Below, piece by piece: positions 14,529 through 20,268 of a stretch of DNA of 64,000 bases. The notes under the pieces were generated by a model. That model was not told where the DNA came from. It did not search any database and saw nothing but the letters and a program-made list of their open reading frames with translations. The first letter of the stretch is position 1. Every line of letters starts with the position of its first letter. The translations under genes and the position numbers were made by a program. The stretch comes from Streptomyces sp. Z26 (lineage in GTDB: Bacteria; Actinomycetota; Actinomycetes; Streptomycetales; Streptomycetaceae), in the NCBI RefSeq assembly GCF_003665095.1, contig NZ_RCHV01000002.1, positions 496,001 to 560,000 on the forward strand. Reading direction: 5' to 3'.

Positions 14529-14552
14529 GTTCGGCATTGTCGAATGCCGAAC
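14529..14552. promoter_or_regulatory. Palindromic operator upstream of gylR
   Basis: Arms GTTCGGCATT and AATGCCGAAC flank GTCG, making a 24-base palindrome whose end is 25 bases before the gylR start. It shares the ATTGTCGAA core with the palindrome before glpF, which supports autoregulation by GylR. It also faces the metH promoter side. Confidence 0.75.
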
Positions 14553-14577: not shown

Positions 14578-15345
14578 ATGGCCCGGACCATCCAGTCCCT
14601 GGAGCGTGCGGCAGCCGTGCTGCGGCTCTTGGCGGGTGGCGAGAGACGGCTGGGGCTCTCCGAGGTGGCGTCGGCGCTCGGCCTGGCGAAGGGCACCACG
14701 CACGGCCTGATCCGCACCCTCCAGCAGGAGGGCTTCGTCGAACAGGACGCGGACACGGGCAAGTACACGCTGGGCGCGGAGCTGCTGCGGCTCGGCAACA
14801 GCTACCTGGACGTGCACGAGCTGCGCGCCCGCGCCCTCGTCTGGGCCGACGACCTGGCCCGTTCCAGCGGCGAGAGCGTCTACCTCGGGGTGCTGCACCA
14901 GCAGGGCGTGCTGATCGTGCACCACGTGTTCCGGCCGGACGACAGCCGCCAGGTGCTGGAGGTCGGGGCGATGCAGCCGCTGCACAGCACGGCGCTGGGC
15001 AAGGTGCTGGCGGCGTACGACCCGGTGGCGCACAGCGAGGCGGCGGACGCGGAGCGGGAGGCGTTCACGGAGCACACGACGACCGGGCTGCCGGAGTTCG
15101 AGGCACTGCTGGACCTCACGCGGGCGCGCGGCTGGGCGTCGGACATCGAGGAGACGTGGGAGGGGGTGGCCTCGGTGGCGGCTCCGGTGCACGACCGGCG
15201 GCGGATGCCGGTGGGGGCGGTCTGCGTCACCGGTGCGGTGGAACGGGTCTGCGACGGCGCGGAGGGCGTCAAGGCGCAGACGGTGGCGGCCGTACGGGAC
15301 TGCGCGAGGGCCGTGTCCCGGGATCTCGGATCTGGACGTTTCTAG
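14578..15345 (+). CDS. gylR: IclR-family regulator of the glycerol operon (GylR)
   Basis: Transcriptional regulator of 255 residues. An N-terminal winged helix (residues 1-65) has the recognition helix region LSEVASALGLAKGTTHGLIR. The IclR effector-binding domain follows, with signature segments PLHSTALGKVLAA and HTTTGLPEFEALL. In Streptomyces, GylR represses the glycerol genes and itself and responds to glycerol or glycerol-3-phosphate. Position directly ahead of glpF-glpK, plus two matching palindromes (upstream of itself and upstream of glpF), supports that assignment. The ATG at 14578 (MARTIQSLERAAAVL) gives the canonical family start; GGAGG lies 7 bases upstream. Intact. Confidence 0.94.
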   Translation: MARTIQSLERAAAVLRLLAGGERRLGLSEVASALGLAKGTTHGLIRTLQQEGFVEQDADTGKYTLGAELLRLGNSYLDVHELRARALVWADDLARSSGESVYLGVLHQQGVLIVHHVFRPDDSRQVLEVGAMQPLHSTALGKVLAAYDPVAHSEAADAEREAFTEHTTTGLPEFEALLDLTRARGWASDIEETWEGVASVAAPVHDRRRMPVGAVCVTGAVERVCDGAEGVKAQTVAAVRDCARAVSRDLGSGRF

Positions 15346-15394
15346 TCAGATCGGTCACTATGCACACGACCCTGAAGTGCGGCCCCGCACCCTC

Positions 15395-15423
15395 TTGACG
15401 GGGCGGACCCCACAGAGAAAACT
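15395..15423 (+). promoter_or_regulatory. glpF promoter (-35/-10)
   Basis: TTGACG at 15395-15400 and AAAACT at 15418-15423 with 17-base spacing, a good vegetative-sigma arrangement. The GylR-type palindrome begins two bases downstream, so a bound repressor would cover the transcription start. Confidence 0.65.
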
Positions 15424-15424
15424 G

Positions 15425-15459
15425 CCGTCCGGCGGTCGACAATGTCGAACACCGGACGG
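15425..15459. promoter_or_regulatory. GylR-type operator upstream of glpF
   Basis: A 35-base palindrome with outer arms CCGTCCGG / CCGGACGG and inner core TCGACAATGTCGA, only two non-pairing positions. It directly abuts the predicted -10 box and lies 46 bases before the glpF start. The core resembles the gylR-proximal palindrome. Confidence 0.75.
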
Positions 15460-15504
15460 GAACCGATCCGCCTTCCCTCTGGACGAAGGACAAAGGAGTC
15501 ACGG

Positions 15505-16296
15505 GTGTCCAGCTCCGACATCTTCATCGGCGAGTTCATCGGCACGGCAGTGCTGATCCTCCTCGGCGGCGGCGTGTGCGCCGGCGTCACGTTCAAGCGC
15601 TCCAAGGCGTACTCCGCGGGCTGGGTCGCCATCGCGCTCGGCTGGGGCATGGCCGTCCTCACCGGCGCGTACATATCGGCCGGTGTCTCCGGCGCGCACC
15701 TCAACCCCGCCGTCACCCTGGGCATCGCCATCGAGGGCGGCACCGAGTGGGGTGACGTCCCGCTCTACATCGTGGCCCAGATGGCCGGTGCCATGTTCGG
15801 CGCGGCGCTCGTGTGGGGCGCGTACTACGGGCAGTTCCACGCCCACCTCACCGACCCCGAGGTCATCGGCGACCCCGCCTCGAAGGCGACCGGCCCCGAG
15901 GGCGGCCGGGCCGCGGTCGGCCCCGGCCCGGTGCTCGGCATCTTCTCCACGGCCCCCGAGATCCGGAACACCGTGCAGAACCTCCTCACCGAGGTCATCG
16001 CGACCACCGTCCTGGTCCTCGCGATCCTCACCCAGGGCCTCAACCAGGAGGGCAAGGGCCTCGGCCCGCTCGGCGTCCTCGTCACCGCCTTCGTCGTGGT
16101 CGGCATCGGCCTCTCGCTCGGCGGCCCCACCGGGTACGCCATCAACCCGGCCCGCGACCTCGGCCCGCGCACCGTGCACGCGCTGCTGCCGCTGCCGAAC
16201 AAGGGCAGCTCCGACTGGACGTACGCCTGGATCCCCGTGGCCGGACCGCTGCTCGGCGGCGCGCTCGCCGGAGCCGTCTACAACGTCGCGTTCTGA
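15505..16296 (+). CDS. glpF: Glycerol uptake facilitator
   Basis: MIP-family aquaglyceroporin of 263 residues in the cytoplasmic membrane, letting glycerol diffuse in to be trapped by the kinase. Six hydrophobic segments are evident. The two pore NPA boxes are SGAHLNPAV (67-69) and [11 protein letters not shown] (213-215). Asp217 after the second box is the residue typical of glycerol rather than water channels. The GTG at 15505 is preceded by AAAGGAG. A Gly/Pro/Ala-rich loop at about 120-145 is longer than in E. coli GlpF, as in other actinomycetes. First gene of the gyl operon. Confidence 0.95.
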
Positions 16297-16486
16297 CCCG
16301 GCGGCGCGTGCCGACCCGTCCCCGTACGACGGCACCGCCGTCCGGTCGGGCGGGCACGCCCGCCGCCCGGACCGCCGCCCCGCAGACCGCGCCCCGTGGA
16401 CCGCGTAACGCCCTCGCGACAGCCACGGCCACCGCGACCGCCACCGCCGCACGCACGCCGACCCAACGACGCATCGGAGCACCCAC
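16297..16486. other. glpF-glpK spacer with CCACCG-type repeats
   Basis: A 190-base spacer, long for two genes expected to be co-transcribed. It includes a run of imperfect GCCACCG/GCGACCG units at about 16421-16452. No hairpin terminator or promoter was recognised. Confidence 0.4.
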
Positions 16487-18010
16487 ATGAGCGACACCCA
16501 CTCCACCGGCCCGTTCATCGCCGCCATCGACCAGGGCACCACGTCCAGCCGCTGCATCGTCTTCGACCGGGACGGGCGCATCGTCTCCGTCGACCAGAAG
16601 GAGCACGAGCAGATCTTCCCGAAGCCGGGCTGGGTCGAGCACGACGCCGCGGAGATCTGGACCAACGTCCAGCAGGTCGTCTCCGGCGCGCTCGACAAGG
16701 CGGGCATCACCCGCGACGACGTCAAGGCGCTCGGCATCACCAACCAGCGCGAGACCACCATGCTGTGGGACCGCGCCACGGGCGAGCCGGTGCACAACGC
16801 CATCGTCTGGCAGGACACCCGTACCGACGCCCTCTGCCGGGAACTCGGCCGCAACGTCGGCCAGGACCGCTTCCGCCGCGAGACGGGCCTGCCCCTCGCC
16901 TCGTACTTCGCCGGGCCCAAGATCCGCTGGCTCCTCGACAACGTCGACGGCCTCCGCGAGCGCGCCGAACGCGGCGAGCTGCTGTTCGGCACCATGGACT
17001 CCTGGGTCATCTGGAACCTGACCGGAGGCACCGACGGCGGCGTCCACGTCACCGACGTGACCAACGCGTCCCGCACCATGCTGATGAACCTGCACACCAT
17101 GGCGTGGGACGAGAAGATCTGCCAGTCCATGGGCGTACCGATGTCCGTGCTGCCGGAGATCCGGTCGTCCGCCGAGGTGTACGGGGAGGCCAAGGGCGCG
17201 CTCGCGGGCGTGCCGGTGGCGTCCGCCCTGGGCGACCAGCAGGCGGCGCTGTTCGGCCAGACCTGCTTCGCGCCGGGCGAGGCCAAGTCGACGTACGGCA
17301 CGGGCACGTTCCTGCTGCTGAACACCGGCGAGGAGGCCGTCAACTCCTACAACGGGCTGCTGACGACGGTCGGTTACCGGATCGGCGACCAGAAGCCGGT
17401 CTACGCGCTGGAGGGCTCCATCGCCGTCACCGGTTCGCTGGTGCAGTGGATGCGCGACCAGATGGGCCTGATCAACAGCGCGGCCGAGATCGAGACCCTC
17501 GCCAGCTCCGTCGAGGACAACGGCGGCGCCTACTTCGTACCCGCCTTCTCCGGCCTGTTCGCCCCGTACTGGCGCTCCGACGCGCGCGGCGTCATCGCCG
17601 GTCTGACGCGCTACGTCACCAAGGCGCACCTCGCGCGCGCCGTGCTGGAGGCGACGGCCTGGCAGACGCGGGAGATCGTCGACGCCATGGCGAAGGACTC
17701 CGGCGTGGAGCTGACCTCCCTGAAGGTCGACGGCGGCATGACGTCCAACAACCTGCTGATGCAGACGATGTCGGACTTCCTGAACGCGCCCGTCGTCCGC
17801 CCGCTGGTGGCCGAGACCACCTGTCTGGGCGCCGCGTACGCGGCCGGGCTCGCCGTCGGCTTCTGGCCGGACACCGACGCCCTGCGCGTGAACTGGAAGC
17901 GGGCCGCCGAATGGACCCCCCGGATGGACGCGGACAGGCGCGACCGCGAGTACAAGAGCTGGCTCAAGGCCGTCGAGCGGACCATGGGCTGGCTCGAGGA
18001 GGAGAACTGA
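16487..18010 (+). CDS. glpK: Glycerol kinase
   Basis: ATP:glycerol 3-phosphotransferase of 507 residues, FGGY fold, cytoplasmic. The N-terminal phosphate loop [18 protein letters not shown], the substrate region [13 protein letters not shown] and the C-terminal FGGY signature ([15 protein letters not shown]) are complete. The substrate residues in GWVEHDA and the adenine-binding part GLAVGFW are also in place. The ATG at 16487 ([10 protein letters not shown]) gives the normal length. The broken glpD begins 5 bases after its stop. The kinase itself shows no damage, so glycerol can be phosphorylated even if the dehydrogenase in this operon is lost. Confidence 0.97.
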
Positions 18011-18015
18011 TCATC

Positions 18016-18786
18016 ATGAACACCCCGCAACGCGTCCCGGCCCTCGGGACGCACCCGACTTCGGGAGCCCGTCCGGACCGCGCCGAGACCAGGGAACGGC
18101 TCGCGCGTGCGACGTTCGACCTGCTGGTCGTCGGCGGCGGCATCCTGGGCACCTCCGTCGCGTGGCACGCGGCGCAGTCGGGTCTGCGGGTCGCGATGGT
18201 GGACGCCGGCGACTTCGCCGGCGCCACCTCGTCCGCGTCCTCCAAGGGCGCGCCGCACGGCGCGGTCAAGCTGGGCGCGGGCGTCACGCGTACTCGGCGC
18301 TGTCCGGTTTCGGTGACGGCGTCGGGCGGGTCGTCTCCCGGTCGCGGGCGGCGGCGGAGAACCCGGGGCCGCGTACGGAGAACCTCCGGTGCATGGCCGT
18401 CTTCGGCGACCACCAGATGAACGACTCGCGGATGGCCGTGATGACGGTGCGCGCCGCCGTCGACTCGGGCGCGGTCGCACCGGCTGCTGGCGGACCGCGA
18501 GCCCGGCGTACGGATGGACCCGGCGACGGCCCGTCAACTGGCCACGCACTACGGCTCGTTGGCCTTCGACATCGCCCGGCTGGCCAACGAGGACCCGGCG
18601 CTCGGTGAGCGCGTCCACCCCGACGGCCCGGAGATCTGGGCGCAGGTCGCCTACGCCCGCGACCACGAGTGGGCGGCGACCGCCGACGACGTGCTGCGCC
18701 GTCGTACGACGCTGACCGTGCGCGGGCTGGACACCGGGGAGGTACGCGCCCGGGTGGAGCGGATGCTCGCGGAGCGGGACGGCTGA
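18016..18786 (+). pseudogene. glpD: glpD remnant (glycerol-3-phosphate dehydrogenase), frameshifted with internal deletions
   Basis: The intact FAD enzyme of about 520-540 residues oxidises glycerol-3-phosphate to DHAP. Only about 770 bases remain. Frame 1 from ATG 18016 gives a good N-terminus with the FAD loop VVGGGILGTSVAW and ATSSASSK. It then jumps directly to a segment that normally lies some 45 residues later (GAPHGAVKLGAGV). At about 18285-18292 the frame shifts, and YSALSGFGDGVGR through QMNDSRMAVMTVRAAVDSG is read in frame 3. At about 18475-18480 roughly 250 residues are missing and the frame changes again. The C-terminal part (HRLLADREPGVR to RRRTTLTVRGLDTGEVR) then runs to the stop at 18786. 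No single product can be made. The remaining pieces still read cleanly, so decay looks recent, or the assembly may be wrong. Confidence 0.9.
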
Positions 18787-19035: not shown

Positions 19036-20268
19036 GTGATCGAGCTGGAGGGGGTTCCCGAGCTGGTCGACCCGGTCATGGTGGCCGCGTTCGAAGGCTG
19101 GAACGACGCCGGCGACGCCGCCTCCACCGCGGTCGGGCACCTGGAACGGGAGTGGAAGGGCGAGGTGTTCGCGGCGCTGGACGCCGAGGACTACTACGAC
19201 TTCCAGGTCAACCGTCCGCAGATGTGGCTGGACGACGGCGTGCGGAAGGTCACCTGGCCGACGACACGGCTCTCGGTGGTCCGGATCGACGACTCCGACG
19301 GCAAGGGCAGACCGCGCGACCTGGTGCTCGTCCGTGGCATCGAGCCGAGCATGCGGTGGCGTTCGTTCTGCAACGAGGTGCTGGGCTTCGCGCACGAGCT
19401 GGGCGTCGAACTCGTCGTCGTGATGGGCGCGTTGCTCGGTGACACCCCGCACACGCGTCCGGTGCCCGTCACCGGCATGACGTCCGACCCGGACCTGGCG
19501 CGCACGATGAACCTGGAGGAGTCCCGTTACGAGGGGCCCACCGGCATCGTCGGCATCCTCCAGGAGGCGTGCACGCACGCGGGCGTACCGGCGGTGAGCC
19601 TGTGGGCGTCCGTACCGCACTACGTCTCGCAGCCGCCCAACCCGAAGGCGACGCTGGCCCTGCTGAACCGGCTGGAGGACCTGCTGGACCTGCGCATCCC
19701 CCTCGGTGAGCTGCCGGAGGACGCGCGCGCCTGGCAGATCGGCGTGGACCAGCTGGCGGCCGAGGACACCGAGGTCGCGGAGTACGTGCAGTCGCTGGAG
19801 GAGGCGCGGGACACGGCGGAGCTGCCGGAGGCGTCGGGCGAGGCGATCGCGAAGGAGTTCGAGCGCTACCTGCGGCGCCGCGACGACGGTCCGGGCACCG
19901 GGCACGCCACGGAGAGCGGCGAGAGCGGCCCGCCGTACGTACGGGAGCCCGGCGGCGCCGGTACGGCGGGCGGGCCCGGCGGCGGCCGGTCGCGCCCGGC
20001 GCGGCCGCGGGCGGGCGACGACGCGGGCGCGGCCGGGCGGGCCCGGCGCGGCGAGGGCGACGCCGGGGACGCGGGCGCCGAAGCGGCCGACGGGAACGCG
20101 GACGGGGACGCGCGGCAGGACGCGGCGGACGGCCCGGAAGGCGCAAGCGGGGAGAGCGGTACGGACGGCACGGCCGGGGAGGACGCGGCGGGCCGTACGG
20201 ACGGACCGTCCGGGTCCGAGCCCGAGTCCGAGGGGCGCGAGGACGGTGGTGACGGCGGCAAGGGCTGA
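19036..20268 (+). CDS. PAC2 family protein with long disordered tail
   Basis: Residues 1 to about 285 form a PAC2 domain, related to the proteasome-assembly-chaplin-independent chaperone fold. Recognisable segments include AAFEGWNDAGDAAS, RGIEPSMRWRSF, GALLGDTPHTRPVPVTG and SVPHYVSQPPNPKATLALL. Actinobacterial members are widespread; their role is not established. The GTG at 19036 follows GGAAGGAGG. The last 120 or so residues (290-410) are low-complexity Gly/Ala/Asp/Glu (for example GGAGTAGGPGGGRSR, then repeated DA/EG motifs), longer than I expect for the family and probably disordered. It lies between the glycerol operon and the convergent mshC. Confidence 0.9.
   Translation: MIELEGVPELVDPVMVAAFEGWNDAGDAASTAVGHLEREWKGEVFAALDAEDYYDFQVNRPQMWLDDGVRKVTWPTTRLSVVRIDDSDGKGRPRDLVLVRGIEPSMRWRSFCNEVLGFAHELGVELVVVMGALLGDTPHTRPVPVTGMTSDPDLARTMNLEESRYEGPTGIVGILQEACTHAGVPAVSLWASVPHYVSQPPNPKATLALLNRLEDLLDLRIPLGELPEDARAWQIGVDQLAAEDTEVAEYVQSLEEARDTAELPEASGEAIAKEFERYLRRRDDGPGTGHATESGESGPPYVREPGGAGTAGGPGGGRSRPARPRAGDDAGAAGRARRGEGDAGDAGAEAADGNADGDARQDAADGPEGASGESGTDGTAGEDAAGRTDGPSGSEPESEGREDGGDGGKG

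Follow-up and report, generated by a model that had tools for sequence, protein, structure and literature searches.

A multi-lesion glpD1 pseudogene in the otherwise maintained glycerol operon of a Streptomyces genome, most likely made dispensable by a second dehydrogenase

The window, a stretch of 64,000 nucleotides taken from positions 496001-560000 of the main contig in a Streptomyces genome of 6.5 Mb, whose neighbours in a glpK comparison are Streptomyces, carries at 14578-18786 a glycerol operon of gylR, glpF and glpK, with what is left of glpD after them, and a PAC2-like gene begins at 19036. All of these genes lie on the forward strand. gylR (14578..15345) encodes an intact IclR-family regulator of 255 aa, in an open frame with 73-85% amino acid identity to GylR of related operons; glpF (15442..16296), encoding the glycerol facilitator, is an intact ORF by its open frame and by tblastn to relatives; and glpK1 (16487..18010) encodes an intact glycerol kinase of 507 aa that scored 752 bits against TIGR01311, above the cut-off, and shares 91% amino acid identity with the kinase of S. 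albidus CAP215. The right-hand flank is formed by the gene at 19036..20268, which we take to be PAC2-like; related loci have it on the right-hand side of glpK, with glpD1 between them or not. The glpD remains sit between the end of glpK1 at 18010 and the start of this gene at 19036, which is the position of the gyl-operon glpD1 (gylB). Two forward-strand 18-mers resemble the GylR site (18 bp) that PMC9732521 gives for S. clavuligerus, one upstream of gylR (14529..14546, 3 mismatches) and the other at glpF (15434..15451, 2 mismatches), the latter being the best match in the 400 kb of this genome that were scanned. Because the 18-mer at 15434 overlaps the start of the longest glpF ORF, translation of glpF probably begins at some point inside this ORF. 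With these open frames and operator-like sites, the statement of the earlier note that glpF, glpK, gylR and the GylR-type operators are intact was borne out. In its gene order, its GylR, its intact glpF and glpK and the operator-like sites before gylR and glpF, the locus is like the gyl/glp operons of S. coelicolor and S. clavuligerus (gylR-gylCAB, equivalent to gylR-glpF1K1D1 in the same source), but in the window glpD1 is broken. A second glpF-glpK pair, 58% and 75% identical in amino acids to the operon copies, was found at L192 (G000:C1:6413001-6428000), with no DAO_C dehydrogenase gene adjoining it.

In a tblastn comparison of the intact GlpD1 of genome G060 (535 aa) with the window, residues 1-103, 132-202 and 431-534 matched 18016-18303, 18267-18479 and 18466-18777, respectively. 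The three blocks share 68-80% amino acid identity with GlpD1; the second dehydrogenase of this genome, GlpD2, matches the C-block only, at 38%. Pfam found DAO in the N-block (E 2.2e-11, profile positions 1-46 of 353) and DAO_C in the C-block (E 3.4e-18, positions 27-104 of 126), and the middle block alone matched no Pfam family. Base-level alignment resolved three losses, of 141 bp (47 codons, in frame), 1 bp and 698 bp (~233 codons), which add up to 840 bp, or ~280 of ~535 codons. The same three sizes were obtained against all six intact relatives aligned (L072, L073, L082, L087, L088 and L111), and this alignment to intact relatives, which had been proposed earlier for setting the deletion boundaries, placed them near 18242-18245, 18284-18286 and 18473-18477. 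Further small deletions appeared in the alignments with L072 (6 bp) and L082 (7, 3 and 1 bp), and small insertions in those with five of the six relatives. The pseudogene thus consists of an N-terminal FAD block (18016..18284) that contains the 141-bp deletion, a middle block (18285..18475) that is shifted into another frame by the 1-bp deletion, and a C-terminal DAO_C block (18476..18786) that follows the 698-bp deletion and lies in the frame of the N-block again, since the total of 840 bp is divisible by 3. The frame from the ATG at 18016 is closed after 134 codons by a stop at 18418-18420, and the C-block holds an ATG ORF of 90 codons; missing are the conserved stretch that follows SSASSK and the portion from residue ~203 to 430. 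The single open frame of ~535-560 codons with DAO and DAO_C that is expected of glpD1 is therefore absent from 18016-18786, and the gene carries several disabling lesions that its intact orthologues lack, as a pseudogene would. The multi-lesion glpD pseudogene that the earlier note had read here was confirmed, and its estimates of about 45 and 250 codons for the two deletions came close, but it had missed the 1-bp deletion and had placed the blocks in three frames where there are two. In the intact relative L087, the same short motif stands at both ends of the large deletion; taking L087 as a stand-in for the ancestral sequence, the 698-bp deletion may plausibly have arisen between short direct repeats.

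We estimated branch dN/dS from triplets with intact relatives. On the window branch, the glpD1 remnants gave 0.24-0.39, and the intact branches gave 0.13-0.19; in three of the four triplets the bootstrap intervals overlap. Furthermore, an exact degenerate 32-base pattern spanning the first deletion junction, which a variant with other bases would escape, was found in only one of 392 Streptomyces genomes, that of the window. A loss common to near relatives was rejected on this ground. The loss, which had been called recent, is therefore so in a relative sense only: the pattern at its first junction was seen in no other of the 392 genomes, but the dN/dS of the remnants is already raised, within the overlap of intervals just given. 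These data also bear on whether the remnant could be functional, either as a 134-codon N-terminal product, as a 90-codon C-terminal product or as a combined product made by programmed frameshifting. The common frame of the N- and C-blocks and the ATG ORF within the C-block would suit such products, but with ~280 codons missing, including the block after SSASSK and residues ~203 to 430, a stop that closes the N-block frame, a first junction that the exact pattern found in no other genome and somewhat raised dN/dS, we regard a functional remnant as scarcely credible.

The locus might instead be a misassembly or sequencing artefact in a strain that has an intact glpD1. The completeness of the genome, 94.8%, is below that of most of the genus sample, which is in keeping with this idea. 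However, the stretch 18016-18786 agrees with the genome sequence, and an artefact would have to produce two deletions of different size and one indel in a single gene inside a 6.49-Mb contig. An erosion comparison was made between 400 kb of the window genome and 400 kb of genome G088, which contains 5,000 N. Of 243 genes predicted in G088, 84 had an orthologue-like match in the 400 kb of the window genome, and two were flagged as multi-frame: glpD1 and an apparent conserved stretch upstream of an infC-like gene, which is presumably infC. The reverse control (246 genes predicted) gave 5 of 81 as raw flags. Neither erosion of the genome in general nor an assembly full of errors was supported for the 400 kb around the window, where glpD1 is the sole real multi-frame case among the 84 genes. 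That singularity, and remnants whose dN/dS is somewhat raised as in a decaying gene, also argue against a local artefact, which we consider very improbable.

The earlier note had reasoned that the cell needs another glycerol-3-phosphate dehydrogenase, and a genome search for a second glpD or gpsA gave both an intact GlpD2 and one gpsA-type gene. GlpD2, a FAD-dependent GlpD of 568 aa encoded around G000:C1:4155058, has both domains complete in one open frame (DAO 1-350/353, 180.9 bits; DAO_C 1-125/126, 132.7 bits), and DAO_C occurs in two places in this genome, the glpD1 pseudogene and GlpD2. Against the PRK12266 NCBIfam equivalog, GlpD2 scored 331 bits, under the cut-off of 360, as did the intact GlpD1 of L072 (278 bits). 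Its best solved relative is 3da1, a glycerol-3-phosphate dehydrogenase, and 2qcu was also matched. Streptomyces GlpD2 belongs to the same family as GlpD1, with DAO and DAO_C, but it has only ~35% amino acid identity to GlpD1 and a complete DAO_C, and in the window genome it is not beside glpFK. GlpD2 is 84-91% identical in amino acids to GlpD2 in eight other genomes, and a GlpD2-type DAO_C (E at most 5e-36, separated from GlpD1 by score) was present in 60 of 61 genomes sampled. The genome also holds two Dak1 genes. The one exception, genome G010 (L070, L218), which is 93% complete, presents the reciprocal case, in that GlpD1 is kept and no GlpD2-type DAO_C was found in it.

Because the window genome holds GlpD2 and a gpsA-type gene, glycerol-3-phosphate (G3P) has an exit. 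The earlier prediction that G3P would build up and stress the cell is therefore not upheld as it stood: a broken glpD1 alone does not strand G3P in a genus in which GlpD2-type dehydrogenases are present here and in nearly all sampled genomes, and glpF-glpK persists without GlpD1 in five other genomes. We propose that glycerol would enter through GlpF and be phosphorylated by GlpK1, and that GlpD2 would oxidize G3P to dihydroxyacetone phosphate; through this redundancy glpD1 would have become dispensable, just as in those Streptomyces genomes whose operon lacks it.

To place the loss in the genus, GlpD1 was scored across Streptomyces genomes, and 143 of 150 had a stop-free match covering 491 or more of the 535 residues. 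The remaining seven were the window genome, G001, G079, G032, G113, G135 and G145. Three of them were kept out of the glpD1-only losses, namely G001 (79% complete, with GlpD1 split over contigs), G079 (78% complete and without glpK1) and G032 (no GlpK above 74% identity). Among the 143, the GlpD1 matches of G043 (L066/L197) and G075 (L229) stop early, at residues 491 and 508, and in G043 the frame continues into low-complexity sequence; these early ends may reflect a frame break near the gene end or a draft error. At 80 named loci around glpK relatives, mostly from Streptomyces, GlpD1 was in one frame in 71. The rest comprised L079, L137 and L139, without GlpD1 beside glpK; S. tuirus PHM034 (L141) and S. 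diastatochromogenes ATCC 21481 (L080), each with a single frame break in GlpD1, that of L141 being accompanied by breaks in glpK and the PAC2-like gene; L128, cut by a contig end; and L149-L151, which have a more distant glpK without GlpD1. TP-A0874 (L079 and L224) was dropped from the loss count because its genome holds GlpD1 elsewhere, with no glpK found within 13 kb around it; the gap after its operon glpK is filled by two other genes, which we presume to belong to methionine or sulfur metabolism.

Altogether, five genomes keep glpF-glpK and GlpD2 with no GlpD1: G113, G135, G145, ST2-7A (L137) and SID8352 (L139). gylR, glpF and glpK are all kept in G145, ST2-7A and SID8352. In G113 and G135 (L200/L230 and L199/L231), no gylR was found beside glpF in ~2.8 kb upstream, so glpD1 is not the sole change in these operons. 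G145 has one additional DAO_C protein and SID8352 has two, all with 32-35% identity to GlpD1. The five operons are like that of the window in retaining glpF-glpK, with GlpD2 elsewhere and no intact GlpD1, but no recognizable GlpD1 remains were found in them, in contrast to the three blocks in the window. A glp operon beside gylR is reported for 441 of 458 complete Streptomyces genomes in PMC9732521, so that 17 genomes without one are already implicit there. We found no paper on natural glpD1 loss in Streptomyces in the open-licence PMC literature.

The distribution was also mapped onto a glpK tree of 103 rows, 90 with GlpD1, 7 without and 6 set to undetermined (L141, L080, L066, L197, L128 and L099); L149, L150, L151 and L201, whose glpK is below 78% identity, were left out. 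On the best tree, the GlpD1 label needs 4 changes without L079, and 3 if the window is also removed; with L079 it needs 5, and well-supported branches by themselves require 3 of these. Such counts cannot separate loss from gain, and we infer loss because GlpD1 is the common state. A glpD1 loss common to the window genome and G145 would be compatible with an open fork in the glpK tree, but the G145 gap after glpK holds other sequence, with GlpD1 matches at chance level only.

The remainder of the operon was compared in the same manner. The glpK window branch had a dN/dS of 0.10-0.17 versus 0.12-0.28 for relatives in four triplets, and gylR had 0.16 versus 0.18 and 0.29 in one triplet, so that neither gene showed relaxation; glpF, at 0.42-0.46, was inside the relatives' range of 0.24-0.59. 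The PAC2-like gene was complete in only three of the loci chosen for this comparison. At positions of glpK that are near-invariant in operons with glpD1, the window has 3 changes, equal to the intact operon L073. Judged from these substitution patterns, glpD1 was probably under selection for most of the history of the lineage and was lost some time ago, with the kinase still constrained. The same near-invariant positions were changed 19 times in L199 (G135), 20 times in L200 (G113) and 10 times in L137, all of them operons without glpD1. Eight listed intact rows had 0-7 changes, a range that includes the other glpD1-less rows, namely the window, L139 (5) and L196 (5), as well as L079 (1). In SID8352, the dN of gylR, glpF and glpK was several-fold above that of its sister L104 and the dN of the PAC2-like gene was not, and the dS of glpK was raised as well; this excess possibly reflects relaxation after the loss of glpD1, or recombination. 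No clear dN excess of this kind was seen in L137 or L079.

Regulation leaves some room for the idea of G3P stress. No GylR-like site within 5 mismatches was found near the glpD2 start in a 20-kb stretch, a scan that is weak beyond that limit, as 400 kb contain 88 sites with 5 mismatches. Both G3P and DHAP release GylR in S. clavuligerus (PMC9732521). With GylR sites at gylR and glpF and none near glpD2, the kinase step should therefore stay inducible by its own product and the dehydrogenase step would not be co-induced, so that G3P levels may be higher while the cell is fed glycerol. For S. lividans, PMC7244461 states that inactivating gylB is lethal on glycerol, a statement reportedly going back to Clerc-Bardin 2001, and that recombinants with part of the kinase and dehydrogenase genes deleted do not grow on this substrate. 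In the same paper, an S. coelicolor strain with a deletion over parts of both genes can still grow on glycerol, and the authors of the paper credit this to a second operon. Which enzyme was inactivated in S. lividans is uncertain because PMC7244461 names gylA/B/C differently from PMC9732521. In PMC9113135, the glp operon is called essential for growth of S. clavuligerus on glycerol. Given these reported defects, GlpD2 may not replace GlpD1 under glycerol, and together with the missing GylR-like site the reported lethality is what still speaks for the stress predicted earlier.

Accordingly, GlpD2 might fail to compensate, with G3P poorly drained and the strain glycerol-negative or glycerol-sensitive and surviving in a glycerol-poor habitat. 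The S. lividans lethality, the lack of a GylR-like operator within the scanned limit near glpD2 and the elevated dN of gylR, glpF and glpK (not of the PAC2-like gene) in SID8352, which has no operon glpD1, are consistent with this. However, glpK and gylR are unrelaxed in the window lineage, a surprising state for an operon whose kinase does harm; five other genomes have glpF-glpK but no GlpD1, and L137 and L079 do not clearly share the SID8352 excess. We consider a failure to compensate unlikely, though well short of negligible. The preferred reading is that glpD1 is very probably a real, lineage-specific, multi-lesion pseudogene in an otherwise maintained operon, most likely made dispensable by GlpD2. 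Because an intact second dehydrogenase is kept and several other Streptomyces genomes lack glpD1, this looks like an ordinary loss in a duplicated function, new as a case and ordinary in kind. Several operons have glpFK but no glpD1, and S. lividans reportedly dies on glycerol once gylB is inactivated (PMC7244461); together these raise a small testable question, namely in which lineages GlpD2 carries glycerol catabolism.

A broader proposal, which we hold to be quite improbable, is that Streptomyces repeatedly uncouples glycerol catabolism, so that the operon dehydrogenase is lost and the facilitator and kinase stay, in the window lineage under GylR control and selection. The operon would then act as a feed-forward supply of G3P that serves the synthesis of lipids or envelope polymers, with an unlinked GlpD2, not controlled by GylR, as its sole drain, and the window would be a half-way fossil of this process. 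Finally, SID8352 carries at L228 (G394:C30:4500-11500) two more GlpD-like genes, with 62% and 37% amino acid identity to GlpD2, together with a GlpK-like gene (41%).
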